A program made the translations under genes and the position numbers. A DNA stretch of 64,000 nucleotides from assembly GCA_028278555.1 (NCBI GenBank), contig JANQEA010000043.1, forward strand, positions 62,001 through 126,000, given 5' to 3'. This DNA comes from Candidatus Bipolaricaulota bacterium (lineage in GTDB: Bacteria > Bipolaricaulota > Bipolaricaulia > UBA7950 > UBA9294). Of this stretch, positions 55,129 to 64,000 are shown piece after piece (the first letter of the stretch is position 1; each line of letters begins with the position of its first letter). The notes beneath the pieces were generated by a model. The model was not told where the DNA came from. It saw only the letters and a program-made list of their open reading frames with translations, and made no database searches.

Positions 55129-55158
55129 TTGACAATCCCAACTCGGAACTAGTAGGAT
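55129..55158 (+). promoter_or_regulatory. promoter of the livGFHM transcript
   Basis: A perfect -35 TTGACA at 55129-55134 is followed after 18 bases by TAGGAT at 55153-55158 (4/6 match to the -10 consensus). Transcription would begin near 55165, about 170 bases before livG. Confidence 0.6.
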
Positions 55159-55178
55159 GTGCTCGAAAGAGGTGCGTC

Positions 55179-55244
55179 ATGACGCGAACCGGATGGACGA
55201 ACCAGCCGAACGCCGCTGACGCACTATTCATTGCCATGACGTAG
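55179..55244 (+). CDS. 21-residue leader peptide before livG
   Basis: An ATG with GAAAGAGG six bases upstream opens a 21-codon frame ending in TAG. The last residues are ADALFIAMT and include CTA (Leu) and ATT (Ile) codons. CTA looks uncommon in the neighbouring genes, which mostly use CTC and CTG. The frame lies between a promoter and an intrinsic terminator, the arrangement expected of a transcription-attenuation leader. Bases 55173-55179 (TGCGTCA), which include the first base of the start codon, can pair with 55217-55223 (TGACGCA) inside the frame. Confidence 0.45.
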   Translation: MTRTGWTNQPNAADALFIAMT

Positions 55245-55283
55245 ACCGACTGGGTTCTTCCTTTGAAGCGATCGGTCGGTGAA

Positions 55284-55315
55284 CCGAGAGCCTGAAGAGG
55301 CTTTCGGTTTTTCTT
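55284..55315 (+). terminator. intrinsic terminator in the livG leader
   Basis: Arms CCGAGAGCCT (55284-55293) and AGGCTTTCGG (55298-55307) pair over 10 bases with one G-U pair and a GAAG loop. TTTTTCTTT follows. The hairpin lies upstream of livG and downstream of its promoter, so it would stop transcription unless relieved. TCGGT at 55272-55276 can pair with ACCGA at 55283-55287 and so compete with its 5' arm. Confidence 0.7.
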
Positions 55316-58811: not shown

Positions 58812-60032
58812 CTAGCCCGGAGCCTCCATCACGGTCACGACTTCGCAGCCTTCGACCTTCCAGACTTCGATCGCGCCTTCGACGTCGCCCGTCTCCTTGA
58901 AGTCGACCAACCCGGCTGCGCCCTGGTAGTTGATCTCTTTTCCGGCCTGGAGTAGCGCGACAGCCTTCTCCCACTCGTTGTAGTAGACGACCTCGCCGGG
59001 CGGGTTTGCCACGGCTCGAAGGTTGTCGCGAATCGTCACGCCGGACGTGTCTCCGCCTCGGACCATCGCCAAGGCGATCAGCATCACGGCATCGTAGGCC
59101 TTGTCGTAGTAGGGGATCGTGCTCGGTCCGTACCCACCGGCATCGTAGTCGGCCTCGAACTGCTCGGCCTTGAACCCGGCGGCGGCGACCGTCCCGAACG
59201 CACCCTCGAGTGGCCCCGGCTGATCAGCCGAGGCGCATGCCGGTCCCGGTGCGACGCCTTCGCCCTTCATTCCGTCGGCCATCAGGAACTGGCCCGTGTA
59301 TCCGGCTTCCACTGCCTCGACGATCTGCTTGTTCCCGTCGACCGGATAGCAGACGAGAACGACCGCCTGCGGGTCGCCGCTCAGGAGCCGGTCGACCTCC
59401 CCACGGTAGGACGGCTTGTTCTCCTCGTAGGGGACGCTCTCGGAGACCGTCCCGCCCAACGACTCGAAGGTCGCCTGGAGAGTATCGGCCAGCCCCTTTC
59501 CGTAGTCGTTGTTGACGTAGATCACCGCGATGTTGCTGTAGTTCAGCAGCTTCGTCAGTCGTCCCAGGACGACACCCTGAACCTCATCGGAGACGACCGT
59601 CCGGAAGACGAAGTCGTTGTCGTCCAACGCAGGGATCGAGGGGGCCGTCGAGGCCGGCGAGATGAGCACGACCTCCGCCGGGATGGTCACGCTCGACACC
59701 GCCAGGGTCACGCCGCTCGAGAGGGCGCCGACGATCGCCGAGACTCTGTCGATCTCGACGAGCTTGCTCGCTGCGTCACGGCCGACGTCGGGCGACGTCG
59801 CGGTGTCTCGCAGTAGGAGCTCAAGCTGCCGGCCGAGGACGCCGCCGGCTGCATTGATCGTGTCGACGGCCATCTGCGCTCCATCGGCGATCGACGGACC
59901 GTACGGACCAAGAGCCCCGGTCAGCGACATCAGCGCGCCGATCTTGATCGGATCTTCCTCCGCCACCGCGATGCCGACGAGCATCGCAGCGACCACTCCC
60001 AGAACCAAACTCAGTTTCAGTCTCAAACGCAT
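58812..60032 (-). CDS. livK: branched-chain amino-acid ABC transporter substrate-binding protein
   Basis: This 406-residue periplasmic binding protein has a signal peptide (residues 1-24, LKLSLVLGVVAAMLVGIAVA) and the type I fold. KIGALMSLTGALGPYG begins the mature part, followed by AVDTINAAGGVLGRQLELLL, GALSSGVTLAVSSV and VIYVNNDYGKGLAD. The ATG at 60032 (minus strand) follows GGAGGTT; longer in-frame starts lie within the leader. The ligand is probably a branched-chain amino acid, which the Leu/Ile-rich leader peptide supports, but related proteins bind amides or aromatics. It converges on livM. Confidence 0.88.
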   Translation of the reverse strand: MRLRLKLSLVLGVVAAMLVGIAVAEEDPIKIGALMSLTGALGPYGPSIADGAQMAVDTINAAGGVLGRQLELLLRDTATSPDVGRDAASKLVEIDRVSAIVGALSSGVTLAVSSVTIPAEVVLISPASTAPSIPALDDNDFVFRTVVSDEVQGVVLGRLTKLLNYSNIAVIYVNNDYGKGLADTLQATFESLGGTVSESVPYEENKPSYRGEVDRLLSGDPQAVVLVCYPVDGNKQIVEAVEAGYTGQFLMADGMKGEGVAPGPACASADQPGPLEGAFGTVAAAGFKAEQFEADYDAGGYGPSTIPYYDKAYDAVMLIALAMVRGGDTSGVTIRDNLRAVANPPGEVVYYNEWEKAVALLQAGKEINYQGAAGLVDFKETGDVEGAIEVWKVEGCEVVTVMEAPG

Positions 60033-60117
60033 GTCAACCTCCAGATGTTCGATGTCCTTGCTGCTGTCTGCCCGTTTCGTCTCCTTGGCGATCACCTCCT
60101 TCCCTTCGTGGCGAGGC

Positions 60118-60150
60118 AAAAGAAAAGACCGCAGGCGGTTGCCTGCAGTC
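60118..60150 (-). terminator. attenuator terminator of the livK leader
   Basis: On the minus strand GACTGCAGGC and GCCTGCGGTC pair over 10 bases (one G-U) around AACC, and TTTTCTTTT follows. It lies about 85 bases upstream of the livK start, inside the transcribed leader. Confidence 0.75.
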
Positions 60151-60208
60151 AGCGAAGCTCTGCACACGCGCGTCGTCCCTACGGAGGGCCTAGCCGAGTA
60201 TGCAGAGC
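60141..60208 (-). promoter_or_regulatory. attenuator stems 1-2 and 2-3 of the livK leader
   Basis: On the minus strand GCTCTGCATAC (60198-60208, inside the leader-peptide codons) pairs with GTGTGCAGAGC (60157-60167) over 11 bases with one G-U. The latter can instead pair with the terminator's 5' arm: TGCAGAGC with GCT and CTGCA, separated by a two-base bulge. These mutually exclusive stems are the 1:2, 2:3 and 3:4 pattern of amino-acid operon attenuation. Confidence 0.6.
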
Positions 60209-60279
60209 CTATCAATCATTAGCATATGGAGGTCGGCGCACAGCACGGTCTCGTCGGTGCGGTCACTCCATATACACAT
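60190..60279 (-). CDS. 29-residue Leu/Ile-ending leader peptide before livK
   Basis: The frame begins with ATG four or five bases from the expected transcription start, so it may be translated from a nearly leaderless message. It ends HMLMIDRLCILG and then TAG. The last ten codons include CTA, ATT, CTC, ATA and CTC for Leu and Ile, plus AGG. CTA, ATA and AGG look uncommon in the neighbouring high-GC genes. The final codons are part of attenuator stem 1. This is what a regulatory leader for a branched-chain amino-acid transporter should look like. Confidence 0.6.
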   Translation of the reverse strand: MCIWSDRTDETVLCADLHMLMIDRLCILG

Positions 60280-60288
60280 GATTGGGCC

Positions 60289-60317
60289 AGCATAGGACGG
60301 GCAACAGGCAATGTCAA
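60289..60317 (-). promoter_or_regulatory. promoter of the livK transcript
   Basis: On the minus strand a perfect -35 TTGACA (60312-60317) and a -10 TATGCT (60289-60294) are separated by 17 bases. Transcription would start near 60282. Confidence 0.7.
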
Positions 60318-60502: not shown

Positions 60503-60532
60503 TTGACTGGTTCCGAGTGGAACCAGTATGCT
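60503..60532 (+). promoter_or_regulatory. promoter of the repeat protein with operator in the spacer
   Basis: TTGACT (60503-60508) and TATGCT (60527-60532) are separated by 18 bases. A perfect inverted repeat, ACTGGTTCC and GGAACCAGT with a GAGT centre, occupies 60506-60527, exactly filling the spacer and touching both hexamers. A repressor, or a MerR-type activator that reshapes the spacer, could bind it. Confidence 0.65.
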
Positions 60533-60599
60533 ACCTGCATCTAGTGTGATAGGTCAGCGCAAGTCACTTGAATCGAAGCGGAAGCGAGAGATAGGGAAG

Positions 60600-63500
60600 A
60601 TGGCGTACGAAGCGGCCCGAAGCATGCAAGGCTGGGTGCGTCTGTGTTGCCTTCTCAGCTCGGCGATTCTCCTGGTTCTCCTCCTGGCCGGCCACGCTGT
60701 CGGGCAAACCGGGACCTTGCATGTCCATGTGGAAGAGGTTGGCGGGGCCGGGTTCGCCGCGGACATCAACGTCTACACCGTAGAGGGCGGAGTGCGTGAC
60801 TATCTCACGGATTTCTCGACATCGTCTACTACCGGAGATGGCTCCAAGCAGCTCCTCCCAGGGACGTATGACGTGAGGATCGAGACGTGGCCTCAGGACA
60901 AGTGGTTCGAGGGAGTCGTGGTAGTAGCGGGGAGTGAGACGTCAATCAGCCAATCGTACGGACGAATCGTGGCACACGTCGATGAAGTTGGCGGAGCGGG
61001 GTTCGCCGCGGATATCAACGTGTACGAGGCTGACGGAGAGGTTCGCGATTACGTCGATGACTTCTGGACGTCGTCATCAACCGGCGACGGCTGGATGATC
61101 GTGCTTCCCGGGGTGTACGACGTGAGGATCCAGACGGAGCAAGCGAAGTGGTTCGAAGGACTGATCGTGGCTGCGGGCAGCGAGACGTCGATCAGCCAAT
61201 CGTACGGCCGGCTCGAGGCGCTCGTCGATGAAGCTGCCGGAGCGGGATTCGCCGCGGACATCAACGTGTACGAGACTGACGGAGAGGTTCGCGATTACGT
61301 CGATGACTTCTGGACGTCGTCATCAACCGGCGATGGCTGGATGATCTTACTGCCTGGGGTGTACGACGTGAGGATCCAGACAGAGCAAGCGAAGTGGTTC
61401 GAGGGACTGGTAGTGGCTGCGGGCAGCGAGACGTCGATCAGCCAATCGTACGGCCGGCTCAAGGCGCACGTCAATGAAGCTGGCGGAGCGGGGTTCGCCG
61501 CGGACATCAACGTGTACGAGACTGACGGAGAGGTTCGCGATTACGTCGATGACTTTCGGACGTTGTCGTCGACCGGTGATGGCTCGATGATCCTGCTGCC
61601 CGGAACGTATGACGTACAGGTTGAGACAGAGCAAGAAATCTGGTTCGCGAGCGTGGCAGTGACTGCTGGTATCGAAACCGAGATCAGTCAAGCATACGGG
61701 CGTATCACCGTACACACGGAGGAGATCGCCGGGGCTCCAGTGCAGAGAAATTGCCACGTATACGCTCCCCCCGGGGAGAATCGCCAGCGTGTAGCCGATT
61801 TCAGCGTCTCACGCAACACAGGGGAGGGATCGGTGATCCTACTTCCCGGCACGTATGATCTTCTCATTGGTGGTCCTGGGTCGAAGTGGTTCGAAGGTGT
61901 GACGATAGCGGTTGGCGAGGAGACTTCCATCAACCAAGGGTACGGACGCCTAGCTGTGCACGCTGAAGATCCAAGCGGAACTCCAGCTGAAGCCCATGTG
62001 GAGGTCTGGGAGTCTGTCGGTGAGGCAGCGTATCACATATGGCACTTCTATACATCGCCTATGACGGGTGATGGGGAGATAGTATTGCTCCCTAGAAGCT
62101 ATGATATTAAGGTTATCACTGCAACTCACGAAACTTGGTACCAGAGCGTTCAGATTGATGCGGGAGCGTTCACGTGGATACCGGGCGACTCGGTGACCAA
62201 GATCAGGATTCCCGAGTTCCTAGGCGAACAGCCCGAGGCGCTGGAGCTGATGGAGGGCGGTGAGCGAGTATTGACGTACGTCCTCGATGATGGCTATGGG
62301 AATCCACTTCCTGACACCTCGGTCGAACTGAACGCGACGTGCGTGCTCACGAACGACGAAGGCATCTTCTCGATCACCGTCGATGAGGCTGCTCTCGCGC
62401 AGTACGGCAGTCCGACCGGACAACCAAACACATATCTTTTCGAGCCTGTCACGGAAGTCAGTGGATATGCCCTGGCGGATCCGCCGGTCGTGACCATCAA
62501 GGTGGTCCCACGAGAGTGGCAGACGAAGTGGTCCGGCGGAGTTCGGCTCTCGGCCAGCGTGGCGGGGCTGAAGGGAATCGAGGGCGGCGGTTGCGAAATC
62601 ACCCTCCATCATGACGACACGCTCACCATCGGCATCCGGTTTGAGGAAGGCGCAGGAATCGCGGCGAGCCTGGGAGCCAGCGTATCGCTTACGAGCAAAC
62701 TCAAGCGGGGTGCTTCCCTCAGTTCGCATGTGCTCTTGACGCACGCCCAGGAGAACGTGTACCGCTGCGATGACCTCATGGATTCCAATCAGATGCTTAC
62801 GTTCTCAGGGTTGATGCTCTGGTCGGTCCTGGAGCTGGGGAGCCGAACCAGCGGTTCCCAAGCTCCTTCTGATCCTGCGCTGGGTTTTGTTGCCGATGCG
62901 CTGCTGAATGTTGTCCTCCCGTGGGGGACCCATAGGACGGAGTACACGGCCGTTGGCGGGATCGAGGCCAAGGTCGAGGCGGCTGCAGATGTCCAGGGGA
63001 TGGCGACCCAGACATTCTCTCTCCTTGGAGTTCCCAAGGACGTTCTCCCCTGGCAGTTCCTCGACACCGGTAGCGGAGCAGCGGCCGAATTGACGGCAGT
63101 GATCGAGCTTGGCCAAACGGAGTATCCCAAGCTTGGCGAGACGGCGTACTTCCTTACCTGCGGAAGCGAGCTCGATGGATACGTCGACCTTCCGCTAGAT
63201 ATCTTGTTCCCGCTGGATGCCCTCCTGGGTGGCCATGCCATCATAGTTGTCGACAGTGGAGGCGTGCTGGAGCTAGCCTACGAAATCTCGTCGAGAGACG
63301 GGGATGATGTTGTGGTAGATCGCTTCACGGTTCGTCGGGGGCAGGATCTGAATGTCAACGGGATCGACGATCTCGCCGAGGTTGTGTCGCATCACGCAGT
63401 GATGTTCACTTCTGAGGCCGTAGCTCTTCTTCTGGGCGCCGGATCAGCCTTGGCGAAGATCACCTTTCCGGGAGGCATCGTGGCACTCTTGCAAGAGCTC

Positions 63501-64000
63501 GAACGGGTTGCGTTGCAGGTAGGAGTCCCACTCGAGTACGAGACGGTCTGCTATCGCGACCTGGGCGACATCACACTGGATCCGAGCGTGATTGTCGGGC
63601 TCCTCGTCGAGAATGGGCTAGGTGCGAAGCTGACGCTAGAGAAGGAGACCGTGTGGCTCAAGGAGAGGGGAGTCTGGTTCGATAGTGTGAAGTACCCAAT
63701 GGAGACGTATGGCTTCGACCCGGGATTGCTGGGAGATGCGCGCACGCTGTACCAGATGTGGCTTGATGCATCGGAGCCGCTTCGAGATGCGATCTGGTCG
63801 GGCATCGAGACGGGAGTCGAATACGTAGTGGAAGACATCGCCCCTCAGATTCCCTGGGAGATCTGCGCTGCAGCGGCATTCACTGGGGGTGGCGTCGCCG
63901 GTGGAGCGTGTGTGGCCTCTGGAGCAGGGGCGGCGATTGCGGGCGATGTCGTCGAGATCCTTGGCTGGGCCTCAGAGAGAGTACAGAGCAGCCAAGGGGA
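60600..64000 (+). CDS. large secreted protein with six tandem 82-residue repeats (3' end outside window)
   Basis: The frame is open from an ATG at 60600 to the end of the window (1133 codons) and is 3'-truncated. A signal peptide covers residues about 12-36 (CCLLSSAILLVLLLAGHAVG). Six tandem domains of 82-83 residues follow. Units 1-4 carry GGAGFAADINVY, STGDG, LLPG-YDVRI, WFEG and ETSISQSYGR, and units 5-6 are diverged. The pattern resembles prealbumin-like or carboxypeptidase-regulatory beta-sandwiches. The remaining 600 residues contain beta-rich and helical parts, ending in a glycine/alanine-rich hydrophobic segment. An exported adhesin, toxin-like or surface protein is possible. GAAGCGAGAG precedes the ATG weakly. 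Confidence 0.8.
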   Translation, partial: MAYEAARSMQGWVRLCCLLSSAILLVLLLAGHAVGQTGTLHVHVEEVGGAGFAADINVYTVEGGVRDYLTDFSTSSTTGDGSKQLLPGTYDVRIETWPQDKWFEGVVVVAGSETSISQSYGRIVAHVDEVGGAGFAADINVYEADGEVRDYVDDFWTSSSTGDGWMIVLPGVYDVRIQTEQAKWFEGLIVAAGSETSISQSYGRLEALVDEAAGAGFAADINVYETDGEVRDYVDDFWTSSSTGDGWMILLPGVYDVRIQTEQAKWFEGLVVAAGSETSISQSYGRLKAHVNEAGGAGFAADINVYETDGEVRDYVDDFRTLSSTGDGSMILLPGTYDVQVETEQEIWFASVAVTAGIETEISQAYGRITVHTEEIAGAPVQRNCHVYAPPGENRQRVADFSVSRNTGEGSVILLPGTYDLLIGGPGSKWFEGVTIAVGEETSINQGYGRLAVHAEDPSGTPAEAHVEVWESVGEAAYHIWHFYTSPMTGDGEIVLLPRSYDIKVITATHETWYQSVQIDAGAFTWIPGDSVTKIRIPEFLGEQPEALELMEGGERVLTYVLDDGYGNPLPDTSVELNATCVLTNDEGIFSITVDEAALAQYGSPTGQPNTYLFEPVTEVSGYALADPPVVTIKVVPREWQTKWSGGVRLSASVAGLKGIEGGGCEITLHHDDTLTIGIRFEEGAGIAASLGASVSLTSKLKRGASLSSHVLLTHAQENVYRCDDLMDSNQMLTFSGLMLWSVLELGSRTSGSQAPSDPALGFVADALLNVVLPWGTHRTEYTAVGGIEAKVEAAADVQGMATQTFSLLGVPKDVLPWQFLDTGSGAAAELTAVIELGQTEYPKLGETAYFLTCGSELDGYVDLPLDILFPLDALLGGHAIIVVDSGGVLELAYEISSRDGDDVVVDRFTVRRGQDLNVNGIDDLAEVVSHHAVMFTSEAVALLLGAGSALAKITFPGGIVALLQELERVALQVGVPLEYETVCYRDLGDITLDPSVIVGLLVENGLGAKLTLEKETVWLKERGVWFDSVKYPMETYGFDPGLLGDARTLYQMWLDASEPLRDAIWSGIETGVEYVVEDIAPQIPWEICAAAAFTGGGVAGGACVASGAGAAIAGDVVEILGWASERVQSSQG
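60726..62204 (+). repeat. six tandem coding repeats of about 246 bases
   Basis: Units begin at 60726, 60975, 61221, 61467, 61713 and 61959. The first is 249 bases and the others 246. Units 2 and 3 are almost identical over most of their length, so duplication or gene conversion is recent. Units 5 and 6 keep only the domain skeleton, and unit 6 is richer in A and T. Confidence 0.85.

Follow-up and report, generated by a model that had tools for sequence, protein, structure and literature searches.

In the trp, his, thr, leu, ilv and phe leaders of Escherichia coli, whose open reading frames (ORFs) are led by a Shine-Dalgarno (SD) sequence, control codons matching the function of the downstream genes are combined with a stop-codon hairpin and an intrinsic terminator. 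Leader-peptide attenuation has been reported from Proteobacteria and Actinobacteria (PMC1262725) and from some Firmicutes (PMC2965389), and attenuation of ATP-binding cassette (ABC) transporter genes was predicted earlier (PMC2965389). Here we analyse a leader at positions 60033-60317 (minus strand) of a 64-kb stretch of DNA, hereafter the window, from the 2.9-Mb Candidatus Bipolaricaulota metagenome-assembled genome (MAG) G000. The leader precedes livK, which encodes the substrate-binding protein of a LIV-type ABC transporter. We put at about 0.78 the probability that it belongs to a modular family of ribosome-sensing transcription attenuators, a reading built on comparison of sequences.

The closest leaderless case studied by experiment, ilvBNC of Corynebacterium glutamicum (ilvB-II motif; PMC11857589, PMC10272879), likewise combines a leaderless ORF containing branched-chain amino acid (BCAA) codons with an intrinsic terminator and two hairpins, the earlier of which blocks initiation; a leader peptide that is almost leaderless is therefore not unique to the present leaders (PMC11857589). 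There, however, three bases are shared between hairpin 2 and the terminator, and ilvB is the gene to which the motif is tied, whereas the second hairpin of the Bipolaricaulota leaders (P2) does not overlap the terminator, and the module stands before at least eight gene types with at least four amino-acid signals. The ABC-leaders found by premature-terminator analysis (PMC2965389) share premature terminators ahead of ABC-transporter genes but have other sensing elements, with an antiterminator possible, and none of them is the Bipolaricaulota module. T-box leaders of amino-acid transporters (PMC2494555) also provide amino-acid-specific transcription control with a specificity readable from a codon; the Bipolaricaulota leaders differ in carrying a translated ORF with codon runs and give no T-box match in Rfam. 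Lastly, the E. coli leaders bear an antiterminator complementarity signal (z -0.85 to about -7.0) that the Bipolaricaulota class lacks. A first-pass annotation of the window had regarded attenuation of a transporter gene in this lineage as new. For the phylum this holds as far as we found: among open-licence papers on Bipolaricaulota and attenuation we came upon no relevant report, which is not proof of absence. For ABC transporters in general, the idea had already been proposed (PMC2965389). As far as our literature search reached, the leader RNA family itself is previously undescribed.

Parts and fold of the livK leader

The livK gene (58815-60032, minus strand, as are all parts of its leader) is assigned by Pfam Peripla_BP_6 (3.5e-47) and by BCAA-binding proteins in the PDB. 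Upstream of it, a scan placed a sigma-70-type promoter, TTGACA-N17-TATGCT, at 60289-60317 (-35 box 60317-60312, -10 box 60294-60289). A nearly leaderless ORF of 29 codons follows at 60190-60279 (MCIWSDRTDETVLCADLHMLMIDRLCILG, then stop), in a position common to all orthologues. Its ATG lies 38 nt past the start of the -35 box, which gives a predicted 5' untranslated region of about 2-4 nt; transcription start sites are inferred from promoters in all leaders. The strong promoter, the 29-codon ORF and the intrinsic terminator that the first-pass annotation had seen before livK were all recovered by scan, and a strict search of the whole 64 kb for a promoter, short ORF and terminator returned this site alone. 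The near-leaderless state of the peptide, also claimed at first, was found throughout the class: 46 leaders share the promoter box and have their ATG 35-40 nt past its start (38-39 nt in 36 of them).

The 165-nt leader has a folding energy of -77.5 kcal/mol, whereas its shuffled versions average -53.1 (z -5.8; equalled by 0 of 200 shuffles), and folds into three separate hairpins, i.e., P1 at the start, P2 and the terminator. P1 (GUAUAUGGAG/CUCCAUAUGC; 60216-60281, from folding and covariation), which had been overlooked, is a 10-bp hairpin that takes in or adjoins the start codon; an outer UCAU/AUGA helix contains that codon. P2 (60155-60210, from folding and covariation) has 13 bp, and its 5' half contains the final codons of the ORF, stop codon included; it is the 1:2 stem described previously, which is real and covaries, although its length had been given as 11 bp. 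Directly 5' of P2 and located by structure are the control codons CTC CAT ATG CTA ATG ATT (LHMLMI; 60214-60231). The Leu and Ile codons originally taken as the signal are present, but the control codons are this conserved run and are not limited to the Leu/Ile codons within P2. The terminator (60118-60150), GACUGCAGGC-AACC-GCCUGCGGUC-UUUUCUUUU, has a 10-bp stem at 60150-60127 followed by TTTTCTTTT and carries the U.G wobble typical of the class.

We compared 18 further livK loci from the same GTDB family (58-84% amino acid identity). The promoter box, an ATG just past the expected start, an ORF of 23-36 codons, P1, P2 and the terminator were present at all 18, the terminator taking the form GACURC..GYGGUC with AGUC in place of GGUC at one. 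Outside the family, 11 livK relatives (36-47% identity) were scanned over 320 nt upstream, where ten had no intrinsic terminator and the other a weak one. In ten livK1/livK2 leaders (livK2 being a second livK type), compensatory change was seen at 16 of 42 pairs, and the numbers of paired or doubly changed cells were matched in 0 of 500 shuffles; as the leaders are mutually related, these counts are of non-independent events. Eight pairs of P1 had changed on both sides in the 10-member subgroup, and P1 was also supported class-wide. For P2, five pairs (10 cells) had changed on both sides in the window's subgroup, with a covariation score reached by none of 500 shuffles. When nine leader segments were swapped across leaders, the arms belonged together only for P1, P2 and the terminator.

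Control codons follow the genes behind the leaders

Other loci were reached by a blastn match to the terminator alone, and 46 distinct leaders were gathered; because the terminator thereby served as bait for many of them, its conservation is overstated for those. A search of 40 and then 100 genomes with the terminator-stem pattern gave matches almost only at leaders, and none with the pattern reversed. A plasmid search gave no match. By Pfam, NCBIfam and PDB, the genes behind the leaders encode the tryptophan-type substrate-binding protein TrpX, the chorismate mutase AroH, homoserine dehydrogenase (hom), aspartate kinase (lysC), the second livK type and L-threonine 3-dehydrogenase (tdh), together with a glutamine synthetase (glnA, read from its translation) and a 161-aa unknown protein. 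The leader peptides end in TTTT (hom), TTT (tdh and the unknown gene), FYWFWY (trpX of L143), FYWYYYF (aroH) and GMMM (livK2).

For a quantitative comparison, P2 was placed by folding alone, the six codons upstream of it were taken and gene labels were permuted 20,000 times, a design that avoids circularity; the glnA leader, the second leader of L040, was grouped with livK1. The Thr fraction of the control codons was 0.44 before hom/lysC and 0.09 elsewhere, the aromatic fraction 0.75 before trpX/aroH and 0.25 elsewhere, the Leu/Ile/Val fraction 0.33 before livK1 and 0.05 elsewhere, and the Met fraction 0.50 before livK2 and 0.04 elsewhere (p = 5e-5, the permutation floor, in each case). Taken over these four codon classes, the match with gene function had a permutation p of at most 0.0013. 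The Met figure is descriptive because livK2 was partly recognised by its MMM peptides, though livK2 is also set apart by divergence, its members being about 59% identical to the query. When the genes themselves were sought by protein search, which sidesteps the bait, each of the six aroH genes found in the family proved to have an aromatic leader (the terminator being altered in some), and 6 of 25 hom matches had a Thr leader. The initial proposal of amino-acid-dependent leader-peptide attenuation for a LIV-type binding-protein gene is thus upheld in that the parts are conserved and the codons of paralogous leaders change with the gene.

Control codons in the related livK leaders are a mixture of Leu, Ile, Val, aromatic and Met codons, which suggests that the livK leader would respond to a broad hydrophobic signal. 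Control codons could, more generally, annotate substrates, here predicting a methionine-linked livK2, a livK1 of hydrophobic range and a threonine-linked protein. The last, a protein of 161-167 aa with no Pfam, NCBIfam or PDB match that stands behind Thr-codon leaders at L004, L006 and L249, is a candidate threonine-linked gene. Thr-containing leaders also occur at L242, L245 and L253 (SLTTTM, LITTTK and LFTTL, respectively). The window's genome holds a second class member (L143; G000:C84:189322), before a trpX-type binding protein. Near livK in G014, another member (L040:4998-5160) precedes the glutamine-synthetase-like gene; a decayed copy lacking a promoter lies before an aminotransferase-like gene (L154). 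Together these suggest duplication as the way in which leaders move.

A covariance model of the P2-terminator stretch (R1), in which base pairs were modelled in the terminator only because P2 is too diverse for alignment, gave matches in family f1 (29 of 33 genomes) and in one of the two genomes of its sister family f2, with only weak matches beyond them (4 of 65 genomes, in f6 and f9); in the window's genome it matched twice, at livK and trpX. Most or all of the genomes surveyed are MAGs. One terminator match outside the order (L144) had no promoter or leader and was rejected as a chance match. By these matches, the module is a lineage-wide family common to one order of Candidatus Bipolaricaulota. 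A reusable leader-peptide module in an uncultured phylum, placed before both uptake and biosynthetic genes, would make the principle wider than recorded.

Proposed ribosome sensing and control of termination

In the mechanism that we propose, the strong promoter would yield an RNA whose first few bases already give the AUG of a leader peptide of 23-36 codons, and a ribosome would trail the RNA polymerase, with P1 covering the start region. The control codons would lie between P1 and P2, with the stop codon usually in the 5' half of P2 and the terminator about 4 nt beyond it. When the cognate aminoacyl-tRNA (here hydrophobic, i.e., Leu/Ile/Met) is plentiful, the ribosome would pass and be released, P2 would close, and transcription would terminate before livK. 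Under scarcity, the ribosome would wait on the control codons, cover the 3' arm of P1 and reach the base of P2; P2 would thus be kept open and more polymerases would continue into livK.

Comparison across leaders shows the parts and their conservation, as well as the three helices and the match between codon and gene. As for geometry, across the class the last control codon lies a median of 4 nt from P2, and P2 a median of 4 nt from the terminator, while the 3' arm of P1 ends at the control codons, directly upstream of them. To judge from sequence, this is the geometry that a ribosome sensor needs. The livK leader also has the features expected of an attenuator: an ORF with function-matching codons, a terminator between ORF and gene, and codons placed where a ribosome would alter a hairpin. 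We infer that the ribosome would be the sensor and that starvation would switch the gene on. Whether transcription stops or continues is probably set by amino-acid supply, through a final step that departs from the textbook mechanism. That an open P2 weakens the terminator may be proposed only tentatively, at somewhat less than an even chance; this is the least certain step, because no conserved competing antiterminator helix was found.

Several results weigh against the proposed mechanism. The best duplex between the upstream 73 nt and the 5' arm of the terminator was no better in 46 leaders than in shuffled sequences (mean z -0.05). Folding with a masking ribosome, on transcripts cut before the 3' arm of the terminator, gave only small shifts. 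A ribosome that has reached the stop codon would open P2 as well, and the model thus needs occupancy time and not position alone. No leader was detected at 19 of the 25 hom matches. Finally, a Thr-codon leader (TTT) precedes the catabolic L-threonine 3-dehydrogenase at L156 (G028:C123, upstream of 1548, minus strand), and induction of that gene by starvation would make little sense. It is conceivable, if rather doubtful, that these leaders are a distinct kind of leader-peptide attenuator, modular across amino acids, which works without any competing antiterminator helix: the position or dwell time of the ribosome would set two insulating hairpins, and the conserved terminator stem would be read by the polymerase or another factor. 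The missing antiterminator in any case poses a testable question, namely how a stalled ribosome alters intrinsic termination.

Among the alternatives, a classical attenuator of the trp/his type with an antiterminator that we missed, e.g., a switch of a few bases where P2 meets the terminator, survives best, although we consider it unlikely. The gap between P2 and the terminator is only about 4 nt, which leaves room for such a switch; the three-nucleotide overlap used by C. glutamicum ilvBNC would be too short for the duplex test (PMC11857589); and strong private pairings, of -15 to -16 kcal/mol, join the P2 5' region to the 5' arm of the terminator in individual leaders such as L135 and L005. 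The duplex test itself, however, which found complementarity at chance class-wide, gave z of -0.85 to -6.96 (mean -2.7) for the six E. coli leaders (thr, leu, his, ilv, trp and phe), a clear separation of the two sets (Mann-Whitney p = 0.0003). No other leader segment showed a pairing shared among the 46 leaders with either terminator arm. An extension of P2 into the terminator via the control region was rejected, since the actual control regions show less pairing with the terminator 5' arm than shuffled ones do (0.31 versus 0.47). The 2:3 antiterminator that the first-pass annotation had placed here fared no better. Its five contiguous pairs plus two show no compensatory change, break in relatives within the window-like subgroup and give no class-wide signal in the swap test; hence the covariation analysis across orthologous livK leaders supports 1:2 (P2) and the terminator but not 2:3. 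Ribosome-mediated attenuation is well supported, whereas a classical 2:3 switch is not.

A trans-acting factor, protein or RNA, might instead recognise the terminator stem, with the leader peptide setting access to it. The stem GACURCRGG/CYYGYGGUC is conserved far beyond the needs of a terminator, occurs almost only at leaders and keeps its U.G wobble in 50 of 51 of them. That conservation is partly one of ascertainment through the bait, though the homology-found livK set retains the wobble in 18 of 19. The leaders are paralogues, moreover, so that shared ancestry explains some of it; the divergent L242, L245 and L253 have GACC..GGTC with no wobble, and the terminator arms found no convincing pairing site in a partial 16S rRNA locus (the stretch including flanks). 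We therefore hold this explanation to be improbable. The terminator as a DNA operator was ruled out, its loop length being variable.

Less probable still, the architecture could be shared while its sign is opposite or gene-specific, such that abundance permits read-through in some members serving uptake or catabolism. The Thr-codon leader before threonine 3-dehydrogenase and the member before the glutamine-synthetase-like gene near livK would fit; most members, however, stand before genes for biosynthesis or scavenging, whose usual logic is induction by starvation. A ligand-binding riboswitch, a T-box or an independent small RNA with an incidental ORF, to which the strong conserved hairpins and terminator might point, is very improbable and largely refuted, because Rfam gave no match even at a permissive threshold and codon identity tracks gene function in a way explicable only by translation.

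Neighbouring features

Between the terminator and livK, an SD-like element (AAGGAGGTGATC; 60090-60101, minus strand) lies about 60 nt 5' of the gene. Such elements (AAGGAGGTG), distinct from the gene's own SD, follow the terminator at livK1 (18 of 19), livK2 (5 of 5) and trpX (6 of 9) loci, about 60-100 nt before the gene, and are confined to members with substrate-binding proteins: none occurs at aroH, lysC or the unknown gene, and at hom and tdh there is only the gene's own SD. At livK2 loci the element precedes a mini-ORF beginning MM.

A second, attenuator-like leader of the same general layout (55129-55309, plus strand; z -5.3) lies before the convergent livG-livF-livH-livM operon. It comprises TTGACA at 55129, an SD-like AAAGAGGTG, an ORF at 55179-55244 (MTRTGWTNQPNAADALFIAMT, then stop) and a terminator at 55282-55309 (AACCGAGAGCC..GGCTTTCGGTT). 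Its peptide ends in LFIAMT, and its terminator stem, CCGARAGCC..GGCTTTCGG, is unlike that of the livK leader. At L201 the terminator of this type is shared and no leader ORF was recovered; a comparable leader is present at L206 (peptide end LFVITL) and, by eye, at L205. Divergent from livK, a large ORF (60528-63998, plus strand) contains several near-identical repeats (..GGAGFAADINVYE.DGEVRDYVDDF..).
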